DNA from: Linanthus parryae
Lineage: Eukaryota; Streptophyta; Magnoliopsida; Ericales; Polemoniaceae
Reading direction: 5' to 3'
Length of the DNA: 64,000 nucleotides
NCBI GenBank assembly: GCA_023055425.1
Contig: JALGPY010000001.1
Span: 30,493,001 to 30,557,000 of the forward strand
A model generated the notes under the pieces. The model made no database searches and had not been told where the DNA came from. It was given only the letters and a program-made list of their open reading frames with translations. This document shows positions 27,833 to 58,587 of this stretch, one piece after another (position 1 is the first letter of the stretch; each line of letters begins with the position of its first letter). The position numbers were made by a program, and so were the translations under genes.

Positions 27833-28088
27833 TATGACTTATAAGCTGCTTATAAGTCAGTTCTGGATTATAAGTTGAAGACAACTTATAAAATGTGTTT
27901 GGCGTGTGATTTATAAGCTGAACTTTTGAATTTAGATTTATAATTTCATAGTGTAAAAATTAACTTAAGAAAAGGTATAGTTTCCAAAAGCTTTTTTAGA
28001 ACTTTAGGACTCAAACAACTTTTATACCAAACACATATTTTTTCATCTTGTTGTCGCAGAACTTCTTGATATAAACTTATAAATCAGC
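27833..28088. mobile_element. MITE, left part, split by the Athila element
   Basis: It begins TATGACTTATAAGCTGCTTA. The matching inverted end lies beyond the Athila insertion at 41262-41276, where TTAAGATAAATCATA, together with the TCAGC target site, gives the complementary end. The element was about 270 bp before the insertion. Confidence 0.55.
28084..28088 (+). repeat. Target duplication of the Athila element (left)
   Basis: TCAGC directly precedes the 5' LTR and is repeated at 41257-41261 directly after the 3' LTR. Confidence 0.95.
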
Positions 28089-29851
28089 TGACAGCTTGAA
28101 AATGGATTAGTCTGGGACATCTTTTTACCATTGGTTTTAACCCTGTGAGAGTTGAGTTTGGCCATTTTCAGCTTATTTTCCACCTGATACGAGGCAGAGA
28201 TTTATAGAACATGACTGCAAAATTTGAGTAATTTTATGCATACTTTTGTTTGTTGGATATGATCGCGGGTACGTGTTATGATGTGCAGGTAACAGGTGCC
28301 GAGAAATGCATGAGATTAACTTGGATGGGAGGCAGCGTGTCAGGAAAGCTGAGCAGAAAAAAGAGAAAAAAGGCTAAGTTGTGCGTTCAAACGCAGGTTA
28401 CCTGCGTTCAGACGCACAAGATGGGAGCAGCAGGAAAATGGCGGAAAGTAGGCTAAGTCATGCGTTCAGACGCAGGCGAGCTGCGTTCAAACGCAGGGTT
28501 CAAATTCAGAAGTGCAGAAAAGCTAAGGAGTGCGTTCAAACGCACAACCTGCGTTCAAACCCAGGACTCGACACTCAGAAGAAGAAAAGACCAAGGTGTG
28601 CGTTCAGACGCAGGCGAGCTGCGTTCAAACGCACGTGTCCAGAAGTCAGAACCCAGAGGAAGGAAAAATGGTTAAGGCCTGCGTTCAAAAGCAGGATGAG
28701 TGCGTTCAGACGCACTGCGTTTGAACGCAGGTGGGTTGCGTTCGAACGCACGGAAGGTTTCCAGAAGCTTCCAGGACGGGTCTTTTTGAGGGTAAAACAG
28801 GAATTTCGTGCATCAATTTTGGAGACTGTGGCAGTACAAAAGGAGGTGTCCCAGCACTGAATTAGGGTTACGCATGCACACTCATACATCTATCATCATC
28901 ATCACAGCAGCCAGTTTCAGAGCCGCCAGGGTTGGAGCAGAGCAGGATTGGAGCAGTTTTTCAGTATTCTGCAAATAACTAGTTTGATCTTTTCTCTCTT
29001 TTATGAAACGTTGTTTTTCAATAATGCAAGCTAGCTAGACCTTTTGCCTAGGTTCTCGGTGAACCTAGGGTTTATGAATTCAGCAGACTTGGTTGTTTGA
29101 TTTTCAGATGCATGGCTAGCTAAGTCTTAATACAGGATGGATTGTTTATTATTCTGTCTTTGATTTTATTTACATACATGAATTGCTTGATCACCCAGGA
29201 GTGTTATAGACAGGATCTGGTGCACGAGAGTGACCAGTGAGAGTTAGGAAGAAAAGACAGGATTTAGTACTCTGCCTTGATGGACCGAGAGGTGAAAAGA
29301 ATCAGGGGACTAGCCCAGAAGCATTAGACCAACTGCTAGACGTTTAGGGGGAGACCGAGAGGAGAACCTGTAACCCTAGCAGACTTAGAACAAACCTGCA
29401 GATTTAGGTGGACCGAGAGGACCCGAAAATCTGCAGGAGAGTGATAGGTGCATGAGACCGAGAGGAGATTGTACTATTGGTATGCTGGCATAAACAAAAT
29501 CACCGTGTGTTTCTGAAATCGAATATACCATGAAAGCTGGAGAGTAACCCTAGGGGATCCTGGAACCTAGATTCTTAGAATTACTGATTTTTACAGCTAC
29601 CGCGATTTCTGCAAAATATTTAAAAAGAAAAATAAAATAAGCTTTTCTAAAATATTGTTTTATTTACCGCAATTTAGTGAGTAGAATTAAACCCCAAACC
29701 TTCCTCCTTTTTACAAACTTTGTGTCTAATTCTAATTCTAATTAGTAACAACTTAAACTGTTCTCGAGGGTTCGACAACCAGAGTAACAATTACATACTC
29801 TATATTACTTGATCGTACACTTGCGAAAAAGCAGATAGGTTTACGCTGTCA
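28089..29851 (+). repeat. 5' LTR of the Athila element
   Basis: 1763 bp, TGACAGC to GCTGTCA. It should hold the promoter and the poly(A) signals. Two iterated signals lie inside: twelve 14-bp near-palindromes at 28382-28750, and four copies of GACCGAGAGG at 29283, 29353, 29411 and 29456. Confidence 0.95.
28382..28750 (+). repeat. Array of 12 paired 14-bp palindromes (5' LTR)
   Basis: Starts at 28382, 28403, 28461, 28482, 28531, 28550, 28599, 28620, 28680, 28701, 28716 and 28737. The consensus is TGCGTTCARACGCA. The eleventh copy is inverted (TGCGTTTGAACGCA) and the twelfth is a perfect palindrome (TGCGTTCGAACGCA). They form six pairs whose members are separated by 7 bp (five pairs) or 5 bp (one pair). 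Copies six and nine each have one substitution, while the matching copies in the 3' LTR are intact. Confidence 0.95.
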
Positions 29852-29857
29852 AGTTTT

Positions 29858-29875
29858 TGGCGCCGTTGCCGGGGA
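29858..29875 (+). promoter_or_regulatory. Primer-binding site (tRNA-Asp type)
   Basis: TGGCGCCGTTGCCGGGGA lies six bases after the 5' LTR. It is complementary to the 3' end of plant tRNA-Asp, the primer commonly used by Athila elements, and would prime minus-strand DNA synthesis. Confidence 0.9.
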
Positions 29876-29994
29876 ACGGTTACAGTTTTTGTTAAAAAGA
29901 CATTAGAATAAGTCTCAGAATTTTTCTTTTCTTTTACGTTTATTTCCTTTTGACTCATTGCTCTTGAATTCTGATTTTCAGGCTATTCTAGTTT

Positions 29995-31875
29995 ATGTCC
30001 AGATTGCCTAGCAAACTGGTATCACCACTTGAAGATCCCGAAAAACTTTTCAGAGAGCAAAGTCGCAGACACCGAGCCACGATGTCTGAGCACGGAGAAG
30101 ACACCACAACCGAAACAGGAACACCCACAGGACATTAGCAACGTACTCCAGCACAGATGGCTCTTTACATTGAAGAGCTGATAGCAGCAGGTTTTGCTGC
30201 CAGGAACAATCAGAGAACTTATAACAGGTCTGGAAGGGCGTTAGTCGAAAACTTTGAAGTCCCAACCGGAGGGCATCAACCAGCTATCGTAGTGCCACCC
30301 ATTACAGCAGAGCACTTCGATCTGAAATCATCCACCATTCAGACCGCCCAGACTCATTGTCCTTTTAATGGGAAGGCAGATGAAGATCCAAACGACTTCC
30401 TTGGAAAATTTGAAGATTACTGCAACAAGATTAAGTATAGAGGAGTCGAAGCGGACACGCTAAAGCTGATTTTATTCCCATACTGCTTGTTCGGAACAGC
30501 AAAAGATTGGCTGGAGGCAAGACCACCGAGGTCTATCACTACCTGGGAGGGGTGTGTTGCTGATTTTTTGGCAAAATTCTACCCCGCATCCCGCGTTTTC
30601 AAGCTGCAGAGTGAGATTTTATCTTTCAAACAGCAGATGGGGGAGACAGTGGTAGACGCATGGGACAGGTTGATGAGACTCGTTAAAAAATGCCCCAATC
30701 ATGGCTTCGGGGACGCGAAAATTCTGCAGGTATTCTACCATGCTCTTGACAGGGAGAATGCTGACAGGATTGATAGGGAAGCTGGGGGTAAATTTTTATA
30801 CCATGTGGATAAGGATGGAGCATACGAACTGATGAAACAATTAGCCAAACAGGATACTCGCCTGTTTGATGACCGCAGGCTCACAGCAGTAGCAGAACCA
30901 GTGGTTGATGACAGGATTGACAATCTCACGAAAGTGGTACAGGACTTAGTCAAAAAGGTGTATACAGAGAAGAAGCCTGTGGCATAAGTAGATGAACCTG
31001 ACTTTGACGCAGCAATTCTGGAGCTTCAGACCGAAGATGCCAACTATGTTCAGCAGCAGTGGGATCCTAGTCGCTACAGACCAGGCACACGTGATCATCC
31101 AGGGTTTCGCTACGGAAATCCCAATGCAGCAGTATATGCACCAGGATTCCAGCACAGGCCACAGGCACAACAGACAGCTCCAGCTCAGCCTGCACAAGCA
31201 GCACCACAGCTAAATTTGTCACAACAACATTTTGAGTCCTATATGGAGAAATTCAATAAGCAGTGGGAAACTAGATTCGCGCAAATGGAGTCATTAACTG
31301 CCGATGTAAGCCAGATGAAGATTGCTATCCGCAACTTGGAGGTACAGAATGGTCAGCTTGCACAGAACCAGGCATAACGAGCCCCAGGGAATTTACCATC
31401 AAACACAGTGAACAATCCACGCGCTCAAATCAATGCTATCACAACTCGGAGTGGAATTGCACTGCAGGATCCACCGTATCCCAGTCATGCACGCGCAGAA
31501 AAGTCAAAAATTATTGAACAGGAAGTGATTGACCGGGAAGACAGTTCAACCGCTAACCCTCAGAAAAGGGGTTCGGTCGAGCAGGAAGCAGCGCAGACTA
31601 ATGAGGGTAATCCAGAAACAGTGCCAATTTCTAAGGAGGTTCCTTACCCTCTGAAGACACGCAAGAGAGATGACAACAAAGACTACGCCAGATTTCTGGA
31701 GGTGTTCAAGCAATTACAGATAAACATACCTTTTGCCGAAGCACTTGCCAAAATGCCTACTTATGCGAAATTTCTTAAAGACATATTGTACGGGAGAAGG
31801 CGAATGAGTGACTTCGAAACAGTGAATCTGACGGCAGAAGCGAGCAGTTGTGTAAAAATGGCCTACCACTGAAAA
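29995..31875 (+). pseudogene. Athila gag, with stops
   Basis: The frame from ATG at 29995 (MSRLPSKLVSPLEDPEKLF) is cut by TAG at 30136 (codon 48), TAA at 30985 and TAA at 31375. It leaves the pol frame near 31850. The best-kept part (30157-30987) contains the retrotransposon gag domain: CPFNGKADEDPNDFLGKFED, AKDWLEARPPRSITTWE, FLAKFYPASRVFKLQSEI. No CCHC zinc knuckle is seen, which is usual for Athila. Downstream is a glutamine-rich coiled-coil stretch, then NAITTRSG and EVPYPLKTRKRDDNKDYARF, which normally precede the protease. At least two of the stops are consistent with C-to-T changes. Confidence 0.85.
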
Positions 31876-34800
31876 AGAAAGACCCTGGCTGCTTTGTTAT
31901 TCCAGTAACCCTGGGCAGTGCATACACAGGAAAAGCCCTATGCGACTTGGGCGCCAGCATCAACCTAATGCCACTGACCATCTTCAAAAGTCTGGGAGTC
32001 GGAGAACCACGTCCAACAAGAATTATGCTTCAAATGGCTGACAGATCTGTGAAACCTGCCTATGGAGTAATTGAAGATATCCTGGTGAAAGTGGGAGAGC
32101 TTATTTTTCCAGCAGATTTTGTGATACTGGATATGGAGGCCGGAGAGGTCCCGCTAATCCTGGGCAGACCTTTCCTGGCGACTGGTGAAGCCATTATTAA
32201 CTGCAAAAGTGGAGAGCTGTCCATGCAAATCAATGAAGAAAAAGTGAAATTCAATGTTTTCAAATCTCTCCAGCTTCCTGACCATTATGGGCATGAAAAC
32301 TGTTTTGCAGTAGAGGTAATTGACGATCTGGAAAGTAATGAGATAGAAGATTTATGGGAGGAATTTGAGGACATGTATCCAGAGGAAACAGAGGAGCAAC
32401 AGGATGAGCAGATCATGGGAACAGAAAGCTGGGTCACGCTATACAGGGATGAAGGAGGCGAGCAGAAAATGACACTCGTCCCGTCACTCCAGGAACCACC
32501 AGTCCTGGAATTAAAACAGTTGCCAGACCACCTCAGGTACGCTTTTATTGGTGAAAATAATACTCTGCCGGTAATTGTTTCTTCTCTTTTATCTCAGGAA
32601 CAGGAACAAAAGCTGCTGGAGGTACTCCGAGAGCATAAAGAAGCCATCGGATGGACAATTGCAGACCTAAAGGGAATCAGTCCTGATTACTGCATGCACA
32701 AAATAAGAATCGAAGACGGAAAGAAGCCAGTTATCCAGCCTCAACGGAGGCTAAACCCAATCATGAAAGATGTGGTACGTAAGGAGGTCATGAAGTGGCT
32801 AGAAGCAGGAATTATATACCCCATATCAGATAGCACCTGGGTCAGTCCTGTCCAGTGTGTACCAAAGAAAGGGGGAATTACAGTAGTACAGAATGTTGAT
32901 CAGGAGCAGATCGCCCAGCGCACTGTCACTGGCTGGCGAATCTGTATGGACTATCGGAAGCTGAACGATGCCACACTAAAAGACCATTTTTCGCTGCCAT
33001 TCATGGACCAGATGTTGGACAGACTAGCGCACCATGCTTATTACTGCTTTCTTGACGGGTACTCTGGCTACAACCAGATCTATATAAATCCAGAAGACCA
33101 AGAAAAGACGACGTTCACTTGCCCATACGGAACGTTCGCCTTTAGACGAATGCCATTTGGATTGTGCAATGCTCCAGCAACATTCCAAAGATGTATGATG
33201 GCTATTTTCTCTGATATGATAGAGAAAAATTTGGAAGTTTTCATGGACGATTTTTCGTTATTCGGAGACAGCTTTGAAGATTGCTTATACCATCTGGCCA
33301 GAGTGCTGATTCGCTGCAGAAAAACAAACCTGGTACTCAACTGGGAAAAATGCCACTTCGTGGTTACTGAAGGAATAGTGCAGGGACACAGGATTTCCAG
33401 CAAAGGACTGGAAGTAGACAGGGCAAAAATAGAGGTGATCAAGCAGCTGCCGTATCCAACCACAGTGAGGGCAATTAAGAGTTTTTTGGGCCACACAGGT
33501 TTTTACAGAAGGTTTATTAAAGATTTCTCAAAAATTACAAAGCCACTATGTAATTTGTTGGGAAAAGATGTGCCCTTCGTATTTGATGAAGCCTGCAAAG
33601 AAGCATTTGACGTGCTTAAAGAGAGGCTGACAACTGCACCCATTATCACAACGCCAGACTGGACCCTCCTGTTCGAGCTGATGTGCGACGCCAGTGATTA
33701 CGCAGTGGGCGCGGTATTGGGACAGCGGAAGGACAAGGTGTGCTGTGTCATCTACTATGCCAGCAGGGTCCTGAATGAGGCACATATTAATTATGGGACT
33801 ACAGAGAAGGAGCTGCTGGCTGTCGTTTTTGCCCTGGATAAATTCAGATCGTACCTGGTAGGCTCTAAAGTCATCATATTCACAGATCACAGTGCGCTGA
33901 AATACTTACTGGAGAAGAAGGACGCAAAGCCACGGCTGCTGCGTTGGATTCTGCTGATGCAGGAATTTGATGTCGAAATCAGGGATAAAAAGGGAGTTGA
34001 AAATGTGGTAGCTGATCATCTATCTCGTCTGGAAAACCCTACAGAAGAATTGGTGCCCATTCTAGAAAATTTTCCGGATGAACATATTATGAAGATCAAG
34101 ACCAATAGACGGCCCTGGTACTATGCCATAGCCAATTATTTGGTCAATGGAGCACTTCCTGAAGACATCACCCCTTGGCAGAAAAAGAAGTTTATTTCAG
34201 ACTGCAGGCAATATTTCTGGGACGATCCCTATCTGTTCAAGCAAGGGGCAGACAATATTCTCCGTCGATGCATTCCATGCCACGAGATTCTGGAGGTAAT
34301 TCAGCACTGCCACTCAGCACAATGTGGGGGACACTTCAGCGGACCGAGAACAGCTCACAAGGTGCTGCAGTCAGGATTTTTCTGGCCAACAGTCTTCAAG
34401 GATTGCCATGATTATGCGCAGAGTTGCGATCGCTGCCAACGGACAGGAAATATTTCCCAGCGGAATGAAATGCCCATGACACTTTGGCAAGAAGTCGAGC
34501 CTTTTGATGTATGGGGTATCGATTTTATGGGTCCATTCCCTTCGTCTCTGGGAAATCTCTACATCTTACTGGCAGTGGATTACGTGTCAAAATGGGTTGA
34601 AGCAATAGCCTGTCAGAAGAACGATGCGGCAGTCGTGGAAAGATTCCTCAAACGTAACATCTTTACCAGATTCGGAACACCGAGGGCCATGGTCAGTGAT
34701 GAAGGTTCTCATTTTATCAATAAGTTCTTTGCCAAAGTTTTAAAGCAATACGGGGTGTCTATCCATAAGGTATCACTGCCTTATCACCCTCAGGCAAACG

Positions 34801-35402
34801 GGCAAGCATAGGTGTCCAACAGAGAGATAAAGAGCATACTGGAAAAAACTGTGAATCCTGGACGCAAGGACTGGTCGTTAAAGCTGGATGATGCGCTCTG
34901 GGCATACAGAACTGCTTATAAAACCCCACTGGGAATGTCCCCATACCAGCTGGTGTTTGGTAAAGCATGTCACTTACCAGTAGAATTGGAGCACAAAGCA
35001 TACTGGGCAATCAAGCAGCTGAATATGGATCACAGTTTATCGGGAAGCAAACGGAAGATGGCACTCCTTGAACTGGAGGAATTCCGTAAAACTGCATATG
35101 AGAGTGCCAAAATTTATAAAGAAAAAACAAAGAAGTGGCATGACAACCGCAATCTACCAAAGAAGATAGAAATCGGGCAGAAGGTTCTCCTCTACAACTC
35201 AAGGATGAAATTCTATCCAGGGAAGCTGCTCTCAAGATGGTCTGGACCATTTATTGTGAAGGACATTACATCATGGGGAGTGGTGGAGCTGGAGAACCCG
35301 AGGGATAATACAGTTTTCAAGGTGAATGGGAACAGAGTCAAGCCATACAGAGAATCTCAGGAAATCATGGAGGTAGAGGCAATCTACCTCGACCTTCCGT
35401 GA
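31850..35402 (+). pseudogene. Athila pol: protease, RT, RNase H, integrase, broken
   Basis: The frame opens at 31848 after a frame change from gag and runs to TGA at 35402 with one TAG at 34809. Domains in order are: aspartic protease ([13 protein letters not shown], about residue 30; LGRPFL), reverse transcriptase ([21 protein letters not shown], and the active site FMDDFSLFG near 33244), RNase H ([43 protein letters not shown]), and integrase (HHCC zinc region [11 protein letters not shown] to CDRCQRTG, then WGIDFMGPF and MVSDEGSHF). The TAG falls where the catalytic glutamate of the integrase DDE triad is expected. The remaining 196 codons hold the integrase C-terminal part. Confidence 0.93.
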
Positions 35403-35570
35403 TAAAAACAGAGGTAACAAAGTCGGGCTGTCGACTGTAAATCACAAGCGCTGGTTGGGAGGCAACCCAACATAGATTAGTTGTTTTTATACAATTTTTA
35501 CAATGTTCATAATTTGAGAGAAAAGTGAGAAAGAGGGATTTAATGTTGAACTCACTGTTTCAGGAATCAG
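35403..35570. other. Pol-to-array spacer in the Athila element
   Basis: Short noncoding stretch after the pol stop. It includes GGTTGGGAGGCAACCCAACA (35453-35472), an inverted repeat that could fold as a hairpin in the element RNA. Confidence 0.5.
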
Positions 35571-35575
35571 AGGCG

Positions 35576-36147
35576 TGCGTTCAAACGCAGGAGACATGCG
35601 TTCAAACGCACGAGTGCGTTCAAACGCAGACACCCTGCGTTCAAAGGCAGACCCACCAACCGACAGAAGAAACACTGGAAACGGCTAACACTTATGTGTT
35701 CAAACGCAGAGGAGCTGCGTTCAAACGCAGATCACGCAGTGAAAATTTCCAGCCACCAAGTGGTGTGTTTAAACGCAACTCATGTGCGTTCAAACGCAAG
35801 AAGACAGAGATGAGGTGGAAAAATCTAAGGACGTGCGTTTAGACGCAGACCCTGCGTTCAAACGCAAGACCCAATCAGCAGAGAATTTCTAGAGACAAGG
35901 CGTGCGTTTAAACGCAGAGTATGTGCGTTCAAACGCAGCTCATCAGAGACATTGCAGAGGACAAGCATTGCGTTCAAACGCAACTCATGTGCGTTCAAAC
36001 GCAACTCAACAAACCCAGAAATTTCATGGACCTTCAAGCATTGCGTTCAAACGCACACCGTGCGTTCAAATGCAGATCATGAGAAATTCAAAATTTCCAG
36101 AAAAATATAAGCTGTGCGTTCAAACGCACAAGCTGCGTTCAAACGCA
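35576..36147 (+). repeat. Internal array of 18 paired 14-bp palindromes
   Basis: Copies start at 35576, 35597, 35615, 35636, 35695, 35716, 35764, 35785, 35834, 35853, 35903, 35924, 35969, 35990, 36042, 36061, 36115 and 36134. They form nine pairs with inner spacers of 7 bp (six pairs) or 5 bp (three pairs). From 35695 on, the pairs recur every 66-73 bp. The sequence between pairs shares only loose words such as AATTTCCAG. The copy at 35903 is a perfect palindrome (TGCGTTTAAACGCA). It lies in noncoding DNA between pol and the downstream ORF. Confidence 0.95.
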
Positions 36148-36543
36148 CATTTGAGCGGGATCAAAAATTTCGGAAAAATTTGAAAAAATTTGAAATTTAG
36201 GGGCCATTCTGCAATTTCTGAAAATTTGCCTATATATACTGTACGGATGACAGTGACTCATTTTCACCCAAGTCATCCAGTTTTCAACTCTCTCTCTAGA
36301 AATTCTCTCTGCCCTAGCAGCCGCCAGAAGCAGTCTGCCGCCAGCAATCTCCGACGACCACCGCAGGACCACCAGAAGGTCAGGAACAGTGTGGGGGTGG
36401 TCAAACTCATCCGATCCAAACACCGACAGATCCACTTCAGAGAGAAATTTCCAGATCTGTACCCGTAAGATTCACTCCGGGTAGCCAGGTTCTATCTTTT
36501 CCTTCTCTTTGAGCATTTTCATTTTTTCTGTTTAAATCTTGAA

Positions 36544-38198
36544 ATGGATGAGGATAGTCCTTACATGAGGCCTGATAGGGCGATTTCACCATTGAACATC
36601 ATAGACTGCAGATTGCTTAGGGTTGACCATTTCTGCGACCATAGGTTTGTTAACATGGAGGCTCACCGTTTCTATCTGCAAGACAAAAAGATTCGGTATG
36701 ACATACCTGCTGAGAGGACCTTTCCCCGTGATAGAGTAGCAATGGGGGATGAACTGTTCAACTATACTGGGCAGGATCATTTTGGGGATTTGTTTACTGG
36801 TTTTACCAATCTGCAAGTCAGTTCTGTGCTGGCTAAGGAGATTTACAGCAATCTCCAGCAGTGCATGAACAGTGAAGCCCAGTCAATTGAATGGATTTAC
36901 TGCAGAAAGAGATGGATTCGAATCACCCCAAATAGCATCCGAGAGAGTCTGGGTCTGGAATTAGTGTTGGATGATTGTCAGTTTCAGGAACTGAGGCGTC
37001 ATCCATCTGAGCAGCTTAGTGAGCAGATCTTGACCACCCTGTGTGCTGGTGTACCAGGCGCTGCTTGGTACTATCCTGAACGGAGTCCTTCCTACCAGAA
37101 ACTCCCTGCGACCTACCTGATTCGAGAGGCGAGATGGTGGACCGAGTGGGTGAACAACAGAGTTGTGGGTATTAAACACTTTAGCCGCATTGATTATAAT
37201 ATTGCCCTGTTGGTGTACTGTCTGATGGCCCGAGAGCCTGTGAGTTTTTCCGGGAACGAAGAGAGACTCACAGCAAGAAGGGTTTGGGTCTCCTGGGGAT
37301 GTTAACAAAAATGGCGCAGGATTATCTGGTAGTTATCCCTGGCGAGCTGAGAGATATTCGACCAGTGCAGGTACGCAAGTACCGAAACATGAGATGTGCG
37401 TTGCATGAGGCCGTGCACGGGCCTCCAGAATTTGTCCAAGTGGACGATGATGATGATGATACTCCACCTCAGGGTGGGGGTGTTGGCATGCCACCACCAC
37501 CTCCTCCCGGTGATGGGGGTTTTCCAGCCTTACCAGGTCCCTTCCGACTGCCACGATCTGCCAGTTCCAGTGAACACAGGCAGGCCGACCCTGACTTAGG
37601 GCAGTCCAGCAGAGGGGCCAGGCGCAGTTCTTTTGGGCGCCTGGAGAGGACTGAGCATGAGGAATGGGTCAGAAAGAAAATTAAGGCCCAAGAAAAAGTA
37701 CAGAACTACTTGGTAAGGACGGTCAAGAAAATGGCCAGGGGTCTTGGAAAGTTGTTCAAGACCCAGAAGCATATTTACCATGCTAACACAGCCGCATTGA
37801 GAGCTCATGAGGCGGCACTCGCTGAAATTCAGAGCAACATGCGTGGTAAGAGATTTAACTTTCCGGACCGCTATTCGAGTGATAATTGTCCCAGCTGGAC
37901 AATGGAGGATAGCCGGCCATATGATAGCTTCTCTGGCCATGACCCCACACCGAGCCCTGAACATGCAGACAGTGTAGGTGACCCCGGCAGACCCGGTACC
38001 CAGTACCCACCTAGGAGAGAGCATGCAGACCCAGGGGCCAGCAGTGCCCATCCCGGTGCCAGCCACGCTGGTACCGCTGCCGCAGCACGCCATGCTGCGA
38101 GGAAACGCGCCAGGGGGCGAACCCCTTCACCATCTCCAGAGCCGACTGACCAGTCTACTCCGGAGAACACAGATTCTAGTTACAGGCCAGATCAGTAG
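36544..38198 (+). pseudogene. Athila downstream ORF (env position), frameshifted
   Basis: A frame from ATG 36544 (MDEDSPYMRPDRAISPLNII) runs to 37303, and the same protein continues in another frame from about 37284 to TAG at 38196. The first part (RWWTEWVNNRVVGIKHFSRI, DYNIALLVYCLMA) resembles the domain known from databases as a putative plant transposon protein. The second part has an aspartate run, a proline-rich stretch, a helical segment (IKAQEKVQNYLVRTVKKMAR) and a low-complexity C terminus. No signal peptide, transmembrane helix or fusion peptide is evident, so calling it an envelope is not justified. The role is unknown. Its position after pol is typical of Athila elements. Confidence 0.8.
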
Positions 38199-39480
38199 AG
38201 TCGCGAGGACGCGCCACCTCTAGTGTGGGGGTGGGGAATCGTGTCCTCCTGCATAGCCGTGTCAGCATATTTTTGTCCATTTTATTTTTAATTTTATTTT
38301 CATTCTTGAGTCAGCACGTTTTTTTATGTTGAGTCTACCCACCAACCTTTCTGACCTTGCATGAAGAAAAAAAAAATAATGATAATTTTTTTAAAAATTT
38401 TTTTTTTGAGAAAGGGTAACTTAGGACCTAGAAACTGAAGAGAATCCAATGAAAGAGCTCATGAGAGTAGGAAGCACTGTAGTAGGGATACTTAAAATTT
38501 TAGTATATTGTGCGCAATTCTCACGACAGGATATCCCGGGTATTCAGGAACGTGGAAAGTAGATAACAGGCATACTTTTGACTTCTCTAGTGTGCTAGGC
38601 GGATTTGGTCTTTAGATAATTGAATATTTTGTTTCCCGTGGAAACTGGTGGACTCTTGGAATCTGGGGTGGACCTTCGTGTAGAGTCGGTTTTATGCGGT
38701 ACAAGTCTTTGGCCTAAGCGAAGTTGGAGAATGTACACCACCATCCCTTAAGGTGGTTCCAAGAGAAAATCCTAAAAAGCCCGCACTCTTAAAGCTCTAA
38801 TGCACAGTTGTAAAAAAACAGAGGAGATTTATTAAAAAAAAAAAAAAAAAGAGAAAAACAAAATAATCTGAAAAAAAAAAATATAATTATTTGTGCTTAA
38901 AGGAGAAACAACATAATGTGCTTCCATTCACATGGAAAATTTGGATTCAATCCAATTTAGAGCTTAAGAGGGAAATTAAAGTCAAGCCGTATTACACAGG
39001 AGTTGTGTGTCCCAGCAATGGGACAATTTGCAAATCAAACGCAATAACGGCTAAGAGGGTCTGAAAACCTCAAATGACTTGGCGAAGAAAAATTATCTGT
39101 TGACTTAAGATGCCTGAACCCTCTAAGTCAAAAGACGTGCTTTATCTTGGTTGGTTTGGTGGATGTTTGGGGATACCTTAGTGAGTTTGTGCACAGGATC
39201 AGTTTATATCATTTCTTGCTGCGTGTTGTGGAATTTCAAAATGAGCTTGTGAGGATTTGATGATTTCAGTTTATGATAGAGAGGTTGCCCAATTTCAGAA
39301 AAAAAAATTTGCTGTGTCTTGAGTCAGTTTGTGTATATTCTGTACCTGAGTCAGTCATCTATTGAGTCTTTTGGTCTGTGTCATGAATCTGTGGAAAAGG
39401 GGAAGTATGCAATTAAAGTATGCAAAAGATGGGTCTGCAAGGCAGTATGCAAGGGTCTGCTCGGGACGAGCAGAGTTTAA
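38199..39480. other. Noncoding 3' region of the Athila element
   Basis: No coding sequence is seen. It starts with a second polypurine-like tract (GTGTGGGGGTGGGGAA, 38223-38238) and holds poly(A) runs at 38366-38374 and 38834-38851. The long noncoding segment before the 3' LTR is typical of large Athila elements. Confidence 0.7.
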
Positions 39481-39493
39481 TGTGGGGGTATTT
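39481..39493 (+). promoter_or_regulatory. Polypurine tract of the Athila element
   Basis: TGTGGGGGTATTT directly precedes the 3' LTR and would prime plus-strand DNA synthesis. Confidence 0.75.
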
Positions 39494-41256
39494 TGACAGC
39501 TTGAAAATGGATTAGTCTGGGACATCTTTTTACCATTGCTTTTAACCCTGTGAGAGTTGAGTTTGGCCATTTTCAGCTTATTTTCCACCTGATACGAGGC
39601 AGAGATTTATAGAACATGACTGCAAAATTTGAGTAGTTTTATGCATACTTTTGTTTGTTGGATATGATCGCGGGTACGTGTTATGATGTGCAGGTAACAG
39701 GTGCCGACAAATGCATGAGATTAACTTGGATGGGAGGCAGCGTGTCAGGAAAGCTGAGCAGAAAAAAGAGAAAAAAGGCTAAGTTGTGCGTTCAAACGCA
39801 GGGTACCTGCGTTCAGACGCACAAGATGGGAGCAGCAGGAAAATGGCGGAAAGTAGGCTAAGTCATGCGTTCAGACGCAGGCGAGCTGCTTTCAAACGCA
39901 GGGTTCAAAGTCAGAAGTGCAGAAAAGCTAAGGAGTGCGTTCAAACGCACAACCTGCGTTCAAACGCAGGACTCGACACTCAGAAGAAGAAAAGACCAAG
40001 GCGTGCGTTCAGACGCAGGCGAGCTGCGTTCAAACGCACGTGTCCAGAAGTCAGAAGCCAGAGGAAGGAAAAATGGTTAAGGCCTGCGTTCAAACGCAGG
40101 ATGAGTGCGTTCAGACGCACTGCGTTTGAACGCAGGTGGGTTGCGTTCGAACGCACGGAAGGTTTCCAGAAGATTCCAGGACGGGTCTTTTTGAGGGTAA
40201 AACAGGAATTTCGTGCATCAGTTTTGGAGACTGTGGCAGTACAAAAGGAGGTGTCCCAGCACTGAATTAGGGTTAGGCATACACACTCATACATCTATCA
40301 TCATCATCACAGCAGCCAGTTTCAGTGCCGCCAGGGTTGGAGCAGAGCAGGATTGGAGCAGTTTTTCAGTATTCAGCAAATAACTAGTTTGATCTTTTCT
40401 CTCTTTTATGAAACGTTGTTTTTCAATAATGCAAGCTAGCTAGACCTTTTGCCTAGGTTCTCGGTGAACCTAGGGTTTATGAATTCAGCTGACTTGGTTG
40501 TTTGATTTTCAGATGCATGGCTAGCTAAGTCTTAATACAGGATGGATTGTTTATTATTATGTCTTTGATTTTATTTACATACATGAATGGCTTGATCACC
40601 CAGGAGTGTTATAGACAGGATCTGGTGCACGAGAGTGACCAGTGAGAGTTAGGAAGAAAAGACAGGATTTAGTACTCTGCCTTGATGGACCGAGAGGTGA
40701 AAAGAATCAGGGGACTAGCCCAGAAGCATTAGACCAACTGCTAGACGTTTAGGGGGAGACCGAGAGGAGAACCTGTAACCCTAGCAGACTTAGAACAAAC
40801 CTGCAGATTTAGGTGGACCGAGAGGACCCGAAAATCTGCAGGAGAGTGATAGGTGCATGAGACCGAGAGGAGATTGTACTATTGGTATGCTGGCATAAAC
40901 AAAACCACCGTGTGTTTCTGAAATCGAATATACCATGAAAGCTGGAGAGTAACCCTAGGGGATCCTGGAACCTAGATTCTTAGAATTACTGATTTTTACA
41001 ACTACCGCGATTTCTGCAAAATATTTAAAAAGAAAAATAAAATAAGCTTTTCTAAAATATTGTTTTATTTACCGCAATTTAGTGAGTAGAATTAAACCCC
41101 AAACCTTCCTCCTTTTTACAAACTTTGTGTCTAATTCTAATTCTAATTAGCAACAACTTAAACTGTTCTTGAGGGTTCGACAACCAGAGTAACAATTACA
41201 TACTCTATATTACTTGATCGTACACTTGCGAAAAAGCAGATAGGTTTATGCTGTCA
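39494..41256 (+). repeat. 3' LTR of the Athila element
   Basis: 1763 bp, same length as the 5' LTR with about 24 substitutions. The four GACCGAGAGG copies are at 40688, 40758, 40816 and 40861. Confidence 0.95.
39787..40155 (+). repeat. Array of 12 paired 14-bp palindromes (3' LTR)
   Basis: Same positions and spacings as in the 5' LTR (offset 11405). Here the fourth copy carries one substitution (TGCTTTCAAACGCA), while copies six and nine are intact. Comparing both LTRs, all 12 copies fit the consensus in the inserted ancestor. Confidence 0.95.
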
Positions 41257-41276
41257 TCAGCTTAAGATAAATCATA
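41257..41276. repeat. Right target duplication and right end of the split MITE
   Basis: TCAGC (41257-41261) is the second target-site copy. The following 15 bp are the inverted end of the MITE whose left part is at 27833. Confidence 0.8.
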
Positions 41277-48261: not shown

Positions 48262-49400
48262 GGGTAAATTACAGATAGGTGACCTGTGGTTTGGGCTCGA
48301 TTCTAATAGGTGACCCGTGGTTTGAAAAGTTTCACTTAGCTAACCTGTGCTTTGTTCCGTGTTTCACATAAGTTTTTCGTCCAAAATTCCGTTAATTAAT
48401 TAAAGATTTATTACACTTTACCCCAGTAAATAGGGCTGCATTGCAAAATGAGAAATTCGATCAACCCCAGTGAAAATAAAAAGAAAGTAAAGGAAAGGAA
48501 AAATAAATGAAAGCATGAAGAACGGACCAAATGAAACATGTTCCAGATCTGGAACATTCAAGAGAAGAAGAGGAGGAAGGACGAAGATGGATAGAGAAGG
48601 AAGGAGGAAGACGGCAACGTGATTGCTGCGCCGCCGGAGGAATACAATGTGATTGCGCCGCTGCTGCATCTTCCAGAGGTCGGAAGGAGTACTTGAAGAT
48701 CAGGACAACTTTTTCACAGTTTCTCTCCTTGTATATATACTTTCTCCCGATGTCAGACTCAATCCAGGTTGTTATTGATATTGGTGTTTTAGTGGAGCTT
48801 TTGTTTTGGTTTGTCTGGGTTTGGGTTAGGTCAATTTTTGCCTATTATTTGGGTTAAATTCAGTTCAGGAATACACATAAATTTATTAATTCTTTAATTT
48901 GATTCGCGGTCGATTTGTTTTCTTGAAGGACTGTAAGAATTTTTTTTTTATAATTTTTTAATTGTGTTGTAGAGTAAAGTTGCGCTATCAAACAATGAAA
49001 AAATTATTTAAAAAAATTGCATTGTTTTACGATAACGATCGCCCGGTCAAAGTGAAAGAAGAGAAGAAACAGAGTGATACTCAGTTTGGTTACACCACTC
49101 AATTTATAAGTTGAGAAGAATCAAGTCAGTGTGTGTTGATTAACAAAGGGGAAAAAAATTATGTTGAATTATGTGTATACTGACAATCATCATCTTCATA
49201 TTTATTTATATCCTTTTGCAACATAACCCGATTTACAGGGGGTAAGTGTAATTACTCTTTAATTAATTAACAGAATTTTGGATGGAAAACTTATGTGAAA
49301 CACGGAACAAAGCACGGGTTAGTTAAGTGAAACTTTTCAAACCACGGGTCACCTAACAGAATCGCGGCCAAATCACAGGTCACCTATCCGTAATTTACCC
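48262..49400. mobile_element. Non-autonomous Mutator-like element
   Basis: The element is 1139 bp with TIRs of over 130 bp beginning GGGTAAATTAC, flanked by a perfect 9-bp direct repeat, ATGTTCAAA, at 48253-48261 and 49401-49409. No transposase is present. The interior holds purine-rich, exon-like sequence (48530-48860) with a 108-codon frame of unknown identity, and a copy of the recurrent MITE at about 48895-49075. Confidence 0.92.
48895..49075. repeat. Recurrent MITE inside the MULE
   Basis: Contains GTTGTAGAGTAAAGTTGCGC and a CCCGGTCAAAGTGAAAGAAG end, matching the family core seen at 13195. It lies inside the MULE, so it was either present in the captured DNA or inserted later. Confidence 0.55.
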
Positions 49401-52411: not shown

Positions 52412-53918
52412 TGTTGAGTCAAAGACCCTTGAATGTGTTTTGGTTGATAATTGTTTTGAGTGATGAAAGACAAAGACTAAGACATAAGCAGCAAAGCATC
52501 TCAGTTATCCCAAGGCCTTGAGATATTGACTGAACTTCAAAGCTTTGAGAGTTATGTTATTCTGCTACATGTTCTAACAGTTCTGTGTTGCAGATTGGAT
52601 ATCTGATTATACAGATCAGTGGTTTACTGCATATACTTGTAGATTACACTATTTATATGTCTAAAACAATTGCAGATGATCATAATAGGAAGAATCAAAG
52701 TTATCTGGGTTTAACTTTGAAATTCTGTGAAGCAGGTTCAGAGCTCCAAGGCCTTGAGATGTGCCTTGAGCTGCTGATAGTTTTTACAGAACTTAGTTGA
52801 TTCTTTCTTGCAAGATTGTGATTCTTAGTATTGTGATTATTTACTCACTTCTAAGTGTCTTAAACTTGTTTTTTCATGATTCATAAGTTTAGAAGATATA
52901 CAGGTTATTGTTCTAGTCTGTTAAACAGTTTTATCAGAAACTGGATAACCAAACAGTCATAGCACTGTTATCTTTCTGGATTTTGTTGTTGCTGTGTTTC
53001 AATGCTGTTGCAGGGTTGTTAAACGTGCAGGAGCAATCTCAACAAACTCCAACGGATATCCACTTGAAGCTGTTTGAATTTCAGTTGAAAACAGAAAAAG
53101 GATTTGTGGAACTGAGATCCTAAAATCTCTCAATCAGTTGCAACTGTGGATAAAAGAGACTGGTTTGAATTTTGAAGGATAATTGAGGCTTGCAGAATAC
53201 TCAGAGAGGTGTGAAAAAATCGTGGGAGATCATTCATTCAAACACACAATCATTCAAGCTTCATTCAAGCTTCCAGAAGATCAAATCAATCCAGTTTTCC
53301 AGAAGAACACATCCAGGCTTCAACAACTTATCTTCATACTGTGTTCTTCACTTGTACTTCTAACTGTGTATCTTTATATTATCTTAAACCTCACTTAACC
53401 TAGTGGTTGGTTGTTCAAGTGAACAACAAGAGGTTCTTGTTAGCTCAACAGTTAGTAGCTGGAACTAGATAGGTTTGGAACCTCAAGCTGTACAGGTGTA
53501 AGGGAAGTCACTTAGACTTGAAGATCTAGGGCTGTTTTTGTGTGATAATAATAAGCGTTTGCCCAATCCTGGTGGGATTAGATCCCTCAGGCAGAGATTA
53601 GGTCTATTGGGACCGAAATCTGTAAATTGCTTTGTGTTCTTTACTTTACAGTTTGATTATTATCTACTGCACACAACTCAAATCAAACTAGGGTTCAAAA
53701 GCTGTTTAGAATTGTTCACAGCTCAAGGCCTTGTAGCTTACTATTTTGCCTTTGTAAATTTCAGACAGTTTACTAAAATCTCAAGGCCTTGAGATTTGAG
53801 TTTCACACAAAGTCTTTCTGTTAAACTTTGAGTTTTGCAAAAAGTTTCCATACTCTATTCAACCCCCCCCCCTCTAGAGTATTTAGGTCCTGTATTTAGT
53901 CTACATTACACACTTTCA
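52412..53918 (+). repeat. 5' LTR of the SIRE-like element
   Basis: Begins TGTTGAGTCAAAG and ends CACACTTTCA, directly before the primer-binding site. The start is inferred from the TG and from position. It holds palindrome copies at 52509, 52536, 52745, 53722 and 53780. Confidence 0.7.
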
Positions 53919-53920
53919 AT

Positions 53921-53934
53921 TGGTATCAGAGCTT
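53921..53934 (+). promoter_or_regulatory. Primer-binding site (initiator tRNA-Met type)
   Basis: TGGTATCAGAGCTT, two bases after the LTR, is the usual copia primer site complementary to initiator tRNA-Met. Confidence 0.88.
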
Positions 53935-53959
53935 GTGTCACTGTTTTAGATCTTACAAT

Positions 53960-55843
53960 ATGGTGACTATGAGTAATGTAGGAGATGGTGGATTTTCACA
54001 AGGAAGGGCAGCCAACAGACCTCCATTGTTCTGTGGTGATAACTTCATGCACTGGAAGGCATTGATGAAGATGTTCATCATAGATCAAGATATGGAACTA
54101 TAGTCAATAGTTAAAAATGGTCCTAATGAGTACTATACTACAATTGATGGAGTCAGATGTATCAAGTCTGAGGAAAATCTTTCAGTCACTGAACTGGAAA
54201 ATGTATCAAAAAATTACAAGGCTAAGAATCTGTTATATTGTGCTCTAAATGCAGATGAGTTCAACAAAGTGTCAAACTGCAAGAGTGCCAAAGAAGTATG
54301 GGATAAACTGGTGGTGACATATGAAGGAACCAGCCAGGTTAAGCAGACAAAAATCAACATACTTCTGAGGCAATATGAGTTGTTCAAGATGAATTCATAT
54401 GAGACCATCAAGGAGGTGTTCAAAAGATTCACTGATGTAGTGAACAACCTGGAGTCATTGGAAAAGAAGTTCTCAAATGAAGAGAAGGTCAGAAAGATTC
54501 TGAGAAGCTTTCCAAAAGCCAAGTGGGAGCCAAAGACAACATCCATTGAGGAAGCTCAGGACTTGAGTCTTCTTCAGCTAGATGATCTACAAGGAAAGCT
54601 GCTCACTCATGAAATGTCTATGAAGGATGTGGAAGGTGATCTGAGTGAAAACATCAGGAATCTAGCACTTAAGGAAATAGACAGTGAAAAGTCTCAAAGC
54701 CTTGAGACTGAGGATGAGCCTGATGATGAAGAGGCTTTAGCATTGATCTCCAAGGCCTTGGCCAGGATTCTCAAAAAGAAAAGAAACTCTGGTAACAGGG
54801 ATTACAACAGAGAGAGATCATGACCCTCAGGCAGCAAGGATTACAAAGGTAAATCTTCATCACAGTCACATAAAACTAAAGTAATTAATTGTTTTGAGTG
54901 TGGTGATGCAGATCATTTAGTAAGGGACTGTCCACAAAAGAAAAAGAACATGAACTTTCAGAAGAAAGATAGTGACAACAGAAGGAAGAAAGCCATGATG
55001 GCTTCTTTGAGTGATTCTGATTCATCAAGTGACTCAGACACAGAAGAAGAGCAAGCAAACCTATTCTTCATGGCAAAGCATGATGAGGAAAATTCATCAG
55101 ACAGACATATTGAAGACATGGTAAAAAATTTACTTGCTAGTCCTTCTGATGTACTTCCAGAAATTCTCAAAAGTATGTTTTTAAATGATGAAAGTTATAG
55201 AAAAGAGATTTTTGCTTTAAAGATTAAGATTCATGAGCAGGTAAAAGAAAACCTGGACCTAGTTTTTTCAAACAAAACTGTTGAAGTTTCTAAGACAAAG
55301 CTGGAAAAAGACTTCAAGGCCTTGGACAGCAGGTTCAAAGTCTTGAAGGCACAGATAAAAGAGGTTGTTGATCGAAACACTCTTTTAACTGAAAGATATG
55401 CTGATCTAAAGACTCATTATGAGAATTTAAAACAACATATCTGCTCTTTGACTGAGAAACTTCAAGAGTCCAAGAAGGTCCTAGCTAGGTTTACAGGTTC
55501 AGAACATAATCTGAATCTCATTCCTGGAGGAAGTCTGAAATCAATGCATAAAAGTGGGATTGGCTATAATCCAAATTTTCCAAAGAAAGGCCAAATTACT
55601 TTTGTCAAATCTGGTAGCAGACATTCTCCAAAATGTCATTACTGTGGAAAAATTGGTCATGTCAGATTAACTTGTCCCTTCAGAAGATCAGAACCTCATA
55701 TTATGAGGAATACTTATCCTTATCAGCTTAAGGGACAGGTTAGGCAGATTTGGGTTCCAAAAGGAATTAGGCCACCAAATATGGGTGATTCTGAGTATGA
55801 CTCAAAGTTCTGCACTTGGTCTAACAGCCTGTTGAGGCAATGA
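53960..55843 (+). pseudogene. SIRE-like gag, broken
   Basis: ATG at 53960 opens MVTMSNVGDGGFSQGRAANR and FCGDNFMHWKALMKMF, the copia gag start. It is cut by TAG at 54101 (codon 48) and TGA at 54821. The gag core is at 54269-54823 (CKSAKEVWDKLVVTYEGTSQ). A first zinc knuckle (CFECGDADHLVRDC, about 54889-54930) follows, then an acidic serine-rich region, a long coiled coil (about 55200-55490) and a second knuckle (CHYCGKIGHVRLTC, about 55633-55674). The frame changes before the protease. Two knuckles and the coiled coil make it longer than most copia gags. Confidence 0.85.
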
Positions 55844-55844
55844 T

Positions 55845-56447
55845 TTGTTATTGCAGGATGTCACCAATGCCTTGAAAGATCAGAAATGGATTTTAGACAG
55901 TGGATGTTCCAGACATATGAGTGGAAAGAAGTCTCTCTTCACTCAACTTACAGAAAAATCTGGAGGAACAATCACACTTGGTGACAAAGCAAAATGCAAT
56001 ATCATTGGTATACGTAGTATTGGTAATGGTTCTACAAATTCTATATCTGATGTTTATCAGGTAGATGGACTTAAGTATAATTTTCTTAGTATCTCTCAGT
56101 TATGTGATAAAGGTTATAAAGCTATATTTGACAAGAAGAAATGTGTGGTGCAAGATGAGAAATCTGGTGATTGCATACTCACTGCTCCTAGATCATATAA
56201 TCTATATGCTATGAATACTAACAATGTTTCAGGTGACAAGCTAAAATGCCTCAAGGCCTTGAAGGAAGATTCAAAGCTTTGGCACAGAAATCTTGGGCAT
56301 ATCAAACTCATCTCAAAAGACTTGGTAAGAGGTTTACCATCACAGAAATTTTCAGATGATGAGGTTTGTAAGGCATGTGTACAAGGTAAACACACCAGAA
56401 GCTCATTCAAGCCAAAGAACTTTGTAAGTACTTCTAGACCCTTATAA
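55845..56447 (+). pseudogene. SIRE-like protease and GAG-pre-integrase
   Basis: WILDSGCSRHMSGKKSLF holds the aspartic protease active site (DSG). KYNFLSISQLCDKGYKAIFD follows. HRNLGHI and CKACVQGKHTRSSF form the HHCC zinc region of the integrase. It ends at an in-frame TAA at 56445. Confidence 0.85.
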
Positions 56448-57110
56448 TTGCTTCATATGGACTTGTGTGGTCCTATGAGAGTTCAGACTCCAAAAGGTAA
56501 GAGGTATATGCTTGTTATAATTGATGATTATTCTAGATTTACTTGGGTGATGTTTATTAGAGACAAAACTGAAGCTTTATCTGAATTTTCTAGACTATGC
56601 AAAGAGCTTCAAACTTTGAAAAATTTACCTGGTGCATCCATTAGAAGCGATCATGGTAGGGAGTTTGATAAACTTGACTTTGATTTGTTTTGTGCAAAGC
56701 ATGGCCTTTCACACAACTTTTCTGCACCTAGAACTCCACAGCAAAATGGAGTAGTTGAAAGGAAAAACATGACACTTGAGGATATGTCCAGAACCATGCT
56801 TCTTGAAATTAATTTGCCAAAGTTTTTATGGGCAGAAGCTGTTAACACTGCCAATTATGTGCTGAATAGATGCTTGATTAGACCTACTTTGAAAAAGACC
56901 CCCTATGAACTGTTTAAAGGTAGAAAGCCTACTGTTTCTTATTTCAAACCCTTTGGTTGTATCTGTTTTGTGCATAATAATGGTAGAGACAATCTTGGTA
57001 AGTTTGATGCTAGAAGTGATGAAGGTGTATTTCTTGGATATTCTCAAACTAGCAAAGCTTATAGAGTTTATAATAGAAAAACAAGATTGTGGAAGACAGC
57101 ATTCATGTAA
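56448..57110 (+). pseudogene. SIRE-like integrase core
   Basis: MLHMDLCGPM carries the first catalytic Asp, ASIRSDHGREF the second, and PQQNGVVERKNMTLEDMSRT the catalytic Glu. YELFKGRKPTVSYFKPFG follows. A frameshift near 57085 breaks the link to the rest of pol. Confidence 0.87.
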
Positions 57111-57162
57111 TTTTTGATGAAAGTACTATGGATTCTCTGAGTGAAAGTTTGCAGATCTATAT

Positions 57163-58587
57163 TTGAACAAGCATGAATCATATGATGATGTTGTGAAAGA
57201 AGACAAAGCCAAAACTAATGTGCAGAATCTATCAGCAGAATCTCAAGGCCTTGAACCTCCTGCTGAACCAAAATCTCAAAGCCTTGAGACAGAAGTTGAA
57301 ACTTTCTATGATGCTCCCTCTACTGTTTCAAGGACTCAAAGCCTTGAAGGAGAATACTCCTGGGTACCGAGAAAGAAGTTTAAGTACCTTGCAGACCATC
57401 CAGCTGATAACATTATATCTGATCCTTCAACTGGAACTCAGACAAGAGGACAGTTAAAGAACTTGTGTGCTTTTAGTGCATTTGTATCTTTGATTGAGCC
57501 TAAGAATACCAAGGAAGCTCTAGAAGATGCAGAATGGATCATTGCAATACAGAGTGAACTAAATGAGTTTGAAAGGAACAAGGTTTGGAATATGGTCCCC
57601 AGACCTAATGAGAAATCAGTTATTGGAACCAGATGGGTATTCAGAAACAAGCTTGATGAGAATGGCAAAGTGGTAAGAAATAAAGCCAGACTGGTAGCTC
57701 AATGATATAATCAGGAAGAAGGTATAGATTATGAGGAGACTTTTGCTCCTGTTGCCAGGTTAGAAGCTATTAGAATACTTCTTGCATTTGCATATCACAA
57801 TCACATAAAGCTTTATCAAATGGATGTTAAATTTGCTTTTCTGAATGGATATTTACAAGAAGATGTTTTTGTAGCACAACCTCCTGGTTTTGAAGATGAA
57901 AATTTTCCTGATCATGTTTATAAACTGGATAAAGCTCTCTATGGTTTAAAACAAGCTCCAAGGGCTTGGTATGACATACTTTCAAAATTTATACTTAAAA
58001 ATAATTTCAAAAGAGGCTTAGTTGACAAAACACTTTTCATTAAACACCATCAAAGTGATCTGTTAGTAGTTCAGATTTATGTAGATGATATATTATTTGG
58101 TGCTACTAATGATGCTCTTTCAAAAGAGTTTTCTAGTCTGATGTGCAGGGAGTTTGAGATGAGCCTAATGGGTGAACTGAATTTCGTTCTTGGACTTCAT
58201 ATATTACAAATGAAGAAAGGAATCTTTGTGCATCAAGGAAAATATACCAAGGACTTATTGAATAAGTACAATATGTCACAGTCCAAGGTGCTTAAGACCC
58301 GTATGAGTTCATCACTCTCTTTAGACAAAGATTCAAATGGTAAGAGTGTGAATCAAAAGGAATTCAGAGGTATGATTGGATCATTTTTGTATTTAACTGC
58401 TAGCAGACCTGATATTATGTTCAGTGTCTGTATGTGTGCTAGATTTCAAGCAGATCCTAAGGAAAGTCATTTAACTGCAGTCAAAAGAATTTTTAGATAT
58501 TTGAATGGAACCAGATACTTAGGGCTTTGGTATCCAAGAAGATCTAATTTTATGTTAAGTGGCTATTCAGATGCAGATTTTGCATGA
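57163..58587 (+). pseudogene. SIRE-like hinge and reverse transcriptase
   Basis: The hinge (57163-57400) contains three palindrome-encoded motifs (SQGLEPP, SQSLETE, TQSLEGE). The RT starts with AEWIIAIQSELNEFERNKVW, has a TGA at 57703, then [33 protein letters not shown], and the active site [12 protein letters not shown] (about 58075). [20 protein letters not shown] leads to RNase H (SGYSDADFA), and TGA at 58585 follows. Confidence 0.87.

Follow-up and report, generated by a model that had tools for sequence, protein, structure and literature searches.

Paired palindrome arrays as likely protein-binding sites ahead of two promoters, one in the LTR and one predicted internally, in an Athila-type retrotransposon

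Why would a retrotransposon carry one 14-bp palindrome dozens of times, always in pairs, inside each LTR and again between pol and a downstream gene? The question is raised by a complete Athila-type retrotransposon that spans positions 28089-41256 of the window, by which we mean the whole 64-kb stretch of DNA analysed. A dimeric protein likely binds the arrays and would activate two promoters together, that of the LTR and a predicted internal one of the downstream gene, ORF3. One upstream control array would have been duplicated ahead of two promoters, with each near-palindrome taking one dimer and each pair taking two adjacent dimers, 5 or 7 bp apart, so that a dimeric protein acting in trans on the arrays could switch on both promoters together.

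The element and its palindromes

The element is flanked by a target-site duplication, TCAGC (28084-28088 and 41257-41261), and the features that follow are all on the + strand. The 5' LTR (28089..29851) is 1763 bp long and matches the 3' LTR (39494..41256) at 1739/1763 positions in a gap-free alignment. The primer binding site TGGCGCCGTTGCCGGGGA (29858..29875) is one that we take to be of Athila/Tat type, and a polypurine tract region, GTGGGGGTATTT (39482..39493), adjoins the 3' LTR. The gag gene (PF03732; 30139..30987) is broken downstream by stops and a frame change ahead of pol, while protease, RT, RNase H and integrase are found in Ty3/gypsy order at 31812..35402 with a single stop at 34809-34811. 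The Pfam domain order (RVT_1, RT_RNaseH, Integrase_H2C2, rve) fits the Athila lineage of Ty3/gypsy elements, and none of the 120 integrase matches listed, of 7960, names a lineage. ORF3 consists of an N part (36544..37305) with the Transposase_32 domain (PF20167) and a C part (37200..38198) with a basic stretch, ARKRARGR, that looks by eye like a nuclear signal, and with no hydrophobic 19-mer exceeding 1.23; in the window copy the frame is broken before the C part. PF20167, the domain of the Athila-type 3' extra ORF, was found in the window and in three further copies (L036, L037 and L040).

The palindromes share the core GCGTT-AACGC and form three arrays, with 12 copies (6 pairs) in the 5' LTR at 28382..28750, beginning 293 bp into the LTR, 18 copies (9 pairs) in the pol-ORF3 interval at 35576..36147, and 12 copies in the 3' LTR at 39787..40155. 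Each of the 42 differs from TGCGTTCAAACGCA, read on either strand, at no more than two positions, and so does one further site in the 64 kb (position 8219); 100 dinucleotide-preserving shuffles averaged 0.23 such sites and never exceeded 2, against 43 observed. Pair members, which mostly share orientation, start 21 bp apart in 16 pairs (gap of 7 bp) and 19 bp apart in 5 pairs (gap of 5 bp), and no copy is unpaired. Our recount in the window thus reproduces both the number and the pairing reported in an earlier sequence-only reading of this DNA, but that reading ran the feature from 28382 to 36147, which takes in the first two arrays and omits the third, though its title counted it. CpG observed/expected is 1.06-1.20 in the arrays and 0.62 in the whole element. 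None of 984 candidates was related at E 10 to the translated LTR array, and a coding origin of the array was rejected on that result. The proposal that a conserved, presumably dimer-type site is iterated in non-coding Athila DNA is supported.

Further copies, motif conservation and the two TATA boxes

A count over the host genome gave 7,152 exact pairs with gaps of 3-9 bp (3526 + 3626), against 0 for a reversed-pattern control. Nine further internal arrays and 18 further LTR arrays, the latter from 11 insertions, were read. The concern that the arrays might be an accident of one copy was not borne out, since the motif was present in every region of the initial set, 7 from LTRs and 9 internal; these regions, like all copies, were located through the motif, so that the sample covers motif-bearing elements. 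ORF3 matches were found downstream of all 9 further internal arrays.

The motif has been kept while the spacers around it decay. Mean pairwise divergence in the internal arrays (n=10) is 0.024 for the motif, 0.135 for the inter-pair spacer and 0.206 for the inner gap, and the corresponding values in the LTR arrays (n=19) are 0.038, 0.210 and 0.285, so that the motif is about 5 to 9 times less diverged than the DNA separating its copies. Motif divergence is below spacer divergence in 45/45 internal and 165/171 LTR comparisons, which are not independent, given the kinship of the copies and the fact that 7 elements contribute both their LTRs (14 of the 18 further LTR arrays). Divergence is also low in the flanks (0.027-0.034 internal, 0.073-0.077 LTR), and the motif falls below them in only 33/45 internal comparisons but in 158/171 LTR comparisons. 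Judged by an ORF3 dS of 0.16-0.20, the internal spacers diverge at a near-neutral level and the internal motif at about one seventh of it. All motif positions except 7 and 9 are near-invariant across copies (minority at most 0.027). Position 9 is variable in the LTR (0.20) and its mirror position 6 is not; therefore, the two halves are unequally constrained, which is unexpected for a plain symmetric dimer.

The distance from the arrays to the TATA boxes is nearly constant. In the window, the LTR TATA position, TACAAAAG (28835..28842), lies 84 bp past the 5' LTR array, with its equivalent TACAAAAG in the 3' LTR at 40240..40247, and an internal TATATATA (36231..36238) lies 83 bp past the internal array. 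The LTR position was first guessed from TACAAAAG, and TATAAAAG was then seen in its place in 17 of the 18 non-window LTR arrays; the last palindrome ends 84 bp ahead of TATAAAAG in 17/18 (11 insertions). TATATATA is present in all 10 aligned internal arrays, window included, and the distance to it is 83 bp in 7 of the 9 further ones and 82 and 73 bp in the remaining two. The stretches downstream of the LTR and internal arrays reached a best blastn E of only 0.94 against each other: the two promoters have the array in common but not the core. Transcription may start at both TATA boxes.

Three copies with LTRs related to that of the window (L032, L035 and L054) were excluded from the divergence alignment. 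In these, the array ends 85 bp before TATATAAA and the final motif is single, unpaired and carries 1-2 mismatches. L032 is a gag-only relative that keeps the LTR arrays, while pol, ORF3 and the internal array all went undetected in it; L056 and L057, read as a check on whether L035 and L054 are part of gag-only elements, gave no gag, pol or ORF3 match, which leaves these two LTRs unassigned. Since L032 keeps its LTR arrays in this state, the factor that recognises them need not be encoded in cis. If this relative relies on the same factor, it would show non-autonomous elements tapping a control circuit.

The candidate binder and competing explanations

ORF3 dN/dS is 0.14 and 0.11 for the two parts (L038 is absent from both sets and L044 from the C-part set), which indicates purifying selection, and a promoter for ORF3 makes sense for this reason. 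ORF3 could alternatively be expressed from a spliced LTR transcript, as the accessible part of PMC7264820 reports for some plant env-like genes. It is possible, if tentative, that the binder of the arrays is the ORF3 protein, at the internal promoter first and at the LTR next, with either an activating role like that of foamy virus Tas or a clearance of silencing like that of VANC. The array precedes ORF3 and recurs in the LTR, and ORF3 is conserved and carries both PF20167 and the basic stretch; in the portions of the cited papers available to us, the domain recurs in a sunflower Athila ORF for which a nuclear signal is predicted (PMC11728184), Tas has high affinity for its internal promoter and most likely binds the LTR later (PMC3798896), and the short VANC motifs share one orientation and were spread by tandem repeats (PMC5735166). 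However, PF20167 was the sole Pfam match of note and no known DNA-binding domain was found; no relative of ORF3 appeared at E 1e-3 among 186 candidates, nor among solved structures (best E 0.61). A single-sequence AlphaFold model was uninformative (pLDDT 33). The gag-only relative, with LTR arrays and no ORF3 match, would need help in trans, and the LTR palindromes kept by env-less Sireviruses favour a host factor in that group, as far as the available text of PMC2829016 goes.

The binder is somewhat more likely to be a host transcription factor than the ORF3 protein. We know of no plant factor with exactly this palindromic site. A full circuit, in which the ORF3 protein would bind the palindromes of the internal promoter, feed back on its own expression, then turn on the LTR and clear silencing, with gag-only relatives exploiting the signal, is doubtful; if true, it would give plants a foamy-virus-like transactivator that shares the Sirevirus layout but evolved independently of it. 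In the reading that we prefer, that of a dimeric protein bound to the arrays, the protein would probably activate the promoters rather than shield them from silencing.

That selection acts on helical phasing along one face of the DNA, as the sequence-only reading had suggested from dyad centres 21 or 19 bp apart, is improbable and was not upheld. A distance of 21 bp is two turns, and after scaling for length the inner gaps are less variable than the spacers between pairs (fraction 0.0006 of simulations, with pairs assumed independent), but 19 bp is not two turns and is common, and gaps of 6, 8 or 9 bp occur in 21 of 191 pairs across copies, those of 8 and 9 bp in LTRs (the count covers 191 of 204 possible pairs, the 13 with alignment gaps inside the motif being excluded). 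No 10.5-bp phase was detected by the Rayleigh test in the LTR (R 0.14, p ~0.80) or internal (R 0.26, p ~0.31) array. The best-fit period lies near 9.9 bp in both (R 0.75 LTR, 0.63 internal), but with a free period such a peak arises in 1132 and 1146 of 5000 jittered arrays (23%); with the period fixed at 9.9 bp, a value chosen afterwards, 69 and 53 of 5000 reach it. The peak is a weak hint and does not amount to a B-DNA phase.

Hairpins in RNA or as cruciforms, with the members of a pair as a 14-nt stem around a 5-7-nt loop serving as a source of dsRNA or siRNA or as a packaging signal, are very unlikely. The arrays fold as RNA far better than shuffles (z -7.8 and -8.5), as is expected of any palindrome array, and palindrome-rich LTR regions of maize Copia Sireviruses are small-RNA hotspots in the part of PMC5311732 available. 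At the 84 deviating stem positions in the 191 pairs, 38 still form G-U pairs, but a change on both sides was seen at 0/84, and the central two bases of the stem are usually mismatched because most pairs have both members pointing the same way. Selection for a hairpin was rejected, given strong folding with no compensatory change. Tandem duplication probably built the arrays, because the inter-pair spacers are weakly similar (a score matched by 0/100 shuffles in each of three comparisons) and array blocks align at ~70% by blastn, but that a pair-bearing unit of ~70 bp was passively duplicated with a functionless motif is hardly credible, as spacers and inner gaps have drifted with the motif unchanged and gene conversion confined to 14-bp tracts, which is implausible, would be needed.

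Precedents among other mobile elements

The closest precedent is the palindromic repeats of Sireviruses and not the VANDAL elements proposed at first, and it is a much closer anatomical match. In the accessible part of PMC2829016, repeated palindromic motifs of these Ty1/copia elements lie in the LTR upstream of the TATA box, with an extra cluster ahead of the envelope-like gene in the nine elements that have one, and form CpG islands in most elements. The Athila palindromes are likewise clustered in the LTR upstream of TATA, with the extra cluster at 35576-36147 preceding ORF3, and their arrays are CpG-rich. The two differ in that pol here has the Ty3/gypsy and not the Ty1/copia order, in the core (CGG..CCG there, GCGTT..AACGC here), in the strict pairing of the window copies and in the near-equal distance from array to TATA at both Athila sites, which the available text of PMC2829016 does not report. 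The layout of an array before the LTR promoter and another before the extra gene was thus already described, in text that, as far as available, does not name a binder. Here the same layout is seen in an Athila family of Ty3/gypsy elements, together with a selection signal that was measured and a near-constant distance to unlike TATA boxes, and the comparison suggests that two superfamilies may have arrived at the same control design. No description of such arrays in Athila elements appeared among the open-access papers listed by our literature searches.

The paired motif at gaps of 5-7 bp was not found in the viral_contigs or genome_contigs collections. The former gave four primer-site matches, none with an element protein, and no pol relative. 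In the latter, a distant Athila-like pol (57-58% identity) occurs on three contaminant contigs, which show no repeated palindrome in the 1.7-3.7 kb that follow pol, so the array is not universal in Athila-like elements.

The comparison with VANDAL elements, as far as the cited excerpts go, is fair as a statement of how the arrays may work, since in VANC-VANDAL of Arabidopsis a short motif is also dense, in one orientation and in non-coding tandem repeats (PMC5735166, PMC10398659). However, VANDAL elements are DNA transposons (PMC11728184) whose binder, VANC, was demonstrated, whereas here we deal with a retrotransposon and a candidate binder only, and the VANC21 site YAGTATTAY is non-palindromic. 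Foamy virus Tas acts through response elements that lie both in the LTR and within an internal promoter before an extra gene (available part of PMC3798896); the anatomy of the Athila element fits that of this animal retrovirus, with no sequence kinship claimed, and ORF3 would be the candidate activator. The purpose of plant retrotransposon extra genes and LTR palindromes becomes directly testable here by binding and reporter assays. Among gypsy elements, Grande also has a gene between pol and the 3' LTR with its own promoter and a nuclear product (according to a title cited in PMC11963269), but this accessory gene is antisense (PMC7264820, in its accessible part), whereas ORF3 is sense.

Palindrome arrays in the element and its family

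The complete LTR retrotransposon at 28089-41256, an Athila-type Ty3/gypsy element, is delimited by a 5-bp target duplication and by two LTRs of 1763 bp that match each other at 1739 of 1763 positions. It has a primer site at 29858, gag and a pol in gypsy order, with reading interrupted by stops and one frame change, and a downstream ORF (ORF3) that carries PF20167. The 24 differences between the LTRs (28089-29851 vs 39494-41256) are 9 transitions and 15 transversions, a low transition share for a methylated plant element. No second copy of the element was found in the window, where the sole blastn match outside it is weak (158 bp, 892-1049).

The sequence-only reading had reported 42 copies of a 14-bp near-palindrome (core GCGTT-AACGC), all of them paired, and our results confirmed both points: 12 lie in the 5' LTR (28382-28750), 18 in an internal array between pol and ORF3 (35576-36147) and 12 in the 3' LTR (39787-40155), with an inner gap of 7 bp in 16 pairs and 5 bp in 5 pairs. 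The window holds 43 motif-like sites, against at most 2 in every one of 100 window shuffles. In the host assembly (1.51 Gb, 121 contigs), a search for exact pairs at inner gaps of 3-9 bp gave 3526 on one strand and 3626 on the other, and none for a reversed control pattern. The regions first read from the listed places were 7 with LTR arrays, 9 with internal arrays and the LTRs L033 and L034 (12 and 10 motif copies); later reads covered 9 further LTR regions, ORF3 parts and other stretches. A one-copy accident, in which related copies would lack the motif, does not agree with these reads, as all 7 LTR and 9 internal regions, chosen by motif, carry arrays (12-14 and 16-18 copies, respectively) with a gap order largely alike within each set. 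The arrays are thus a trait of a large conserved family, the share of Athila elements with arrays not being given by a motif-picked sample.

Spacing, folding and constraint

The proposal that the pairs face one side of the DNA helix was not supported, since neither the LTR nor the internal array shows a 10.5-bp phase. The best positional period, found post hoc, is ~9.9 bp in both arrays (28382-28750, 35576-36147); with the period left free, a similar peak appears in 1132/5000 and 1146/5000 jittered arrays, and with it fixed at 9.9 bp, picked afterwards, 69/5000 and 53/5000 reach it. This period is weakly supported, and its occurrence in both arrays is only a hint because they have a common origin. 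The proposed 5- or 7-bp gap stood for 170 of 191 pairs across copies, but 21 have gaps of 6, 8 or 9 bp. Inner-gap length is likely preferred, and gaps in the window vary less than spacers predict (simulated fraction 0.0006, pairs taken as independent). RNA folding of the arrays is strong (z -7.8 and -8.5), and none of the 84 deviating stem positions in the 191 pairs is compensated, with 38 remaining G-U.

For divergence, the array segments of 19 LTR and 10 internal copies were aligned, counting those of the window; seven elements contribute both of their LTRs and so account for 14 of the LTR arrays. Mean pairwise divergence of motif, inter-pair spacer and inner gap was 0.024, 0.135 and 0.206 in internal arrays and 0.038, 0.210 and 0.285 in LTR arrays, with flanks at 0.027-0.034 and 0.073-0.077, respectively. 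The motif diverged less than the spacer in 45/45 internal and 165/171 LTR comparisons and less than the flank in 33/45 and 158/171, the copies being related and the trials not independent. Two separate ORF3 pieces gave dN/dS of 0.14 (dS 0.20, 9 sequences) and 0.11 (dS 0.16, 8 sequences); set against this dS, internal spacers drift at about the synonymous rate and the internal motif ~7x slower. Constraint on the flanks as well is what a promoter region would show. Notable variation within the motif is confined to positions 7 and 9 (remaining positions <=0.027), and the motif halves are not treated alike, since LTR copies differ at position 9 but not at its mirror, position 6. In each window LTR (28382-28750, 39787-40155), the TTCAGA variant at position 9 is present in exactly one member of 4/6 pairs.

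Array-to-TATA distance and the candidate binder

The sequence TATATATA lies at 36231, 83 bp past the internal array, and was found in 10/10 aligned internal copies, at 83 bp in 7/9, 82 bp in one and 73 bp in one. The window LTR has TACAAAAG, initially rated a weak TATA candidate, 84 bp past its array, and 17/18 other LTR arrays have TATAAAAG at the matching place, 84 bp away in those 17. The stretches downstream of the LTR and internal arrays show no homology by blastn (best E 0.94), so their near-equal distance is unlikely to come from common descent of the core promoter. Judging from sequence, transcription may begin at these two putative TATA sites. The favoured reading is that tandem duplication produced an array which serves as an upstream control region for both putative promoters, LTR and internal, and that a predicted dimeric protein would bind it and activate both.

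The host region L032 (C1:12003000-12012900) is a gag-only LTR element: its gag is 50% identical over 220 aa, it has a 627-aa ORF, and the 9.9 kb read yielded neither a pol nor an ORF3 match at E 1e-3. Its long LTRs (99.3% identical across 2176 aligned bases) share a ~540-bp segment of 86% identity with the Athila LTR and hold 16 and 15 motif copies, part of them unpaired, the final copy lying 85 bp ahead of TATATAAA; there are none between the LTRs. L032 is likely a non-autonomous partner of the Athila element, and its retention of LTR arrays suggests that the factor acts in trans. It also agrees with the rule given for Sireviruses in PMC2829016, that an internal palindrome cluster accompanies an extra gene, having neither. 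Three distant Athila-like contaminant contigs (pol identity 57-58%) have no repeated palindrome after pol, and two of them are 99.6% identical to each other. A plant Athila-like contig, 99.6% identical between the two, is present in the bacterial assemblies L006 and L007, which belong to different genera; it is apparently a shared contamination.

A host factor is somewhat the likelier binder. That the ORF3 protein itself binds the arrays is the most interesting of the readings and a little less probable: its C part in the window holds a basic nuclear-signal-like stretch, and PMC11728184 describes a predicted nuclear signal in a sunflower Athila ORF with the PF20167 domain, but no DNA-binding domain was demonstrable in ORF3 by Pfam or solved-structure search. 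ORF3 reads as a single 558-aa protein with PF20167 in the host regions L036, L037 and L040.

Sirevirus layout and other palindromes in the window

The arrays have the same layout as the repeated motifs of Sireviruses, but differ in superfamily, in core and in the pairing of copies. The window also includes a Ty1/copia element at 52509-59184 (gag 54104, integrase 56448, RT 57706) with 15 near-copies (<=3 mismatches) of the palindrome CTCAAGGCCTTGAG, against 0.3 expected, in both coding and non-coding parts. An inverted repeat of 190 bp with 88% identity occupies 48262-48451 and 49211-49400. A short LTR element, with LTRs at 60045-60752 and 61561-62274 (95% identity, ~0.8 kb between), carries the palindrome CATGTNNNNACATG three times per LTR, 41-44 bp apart.
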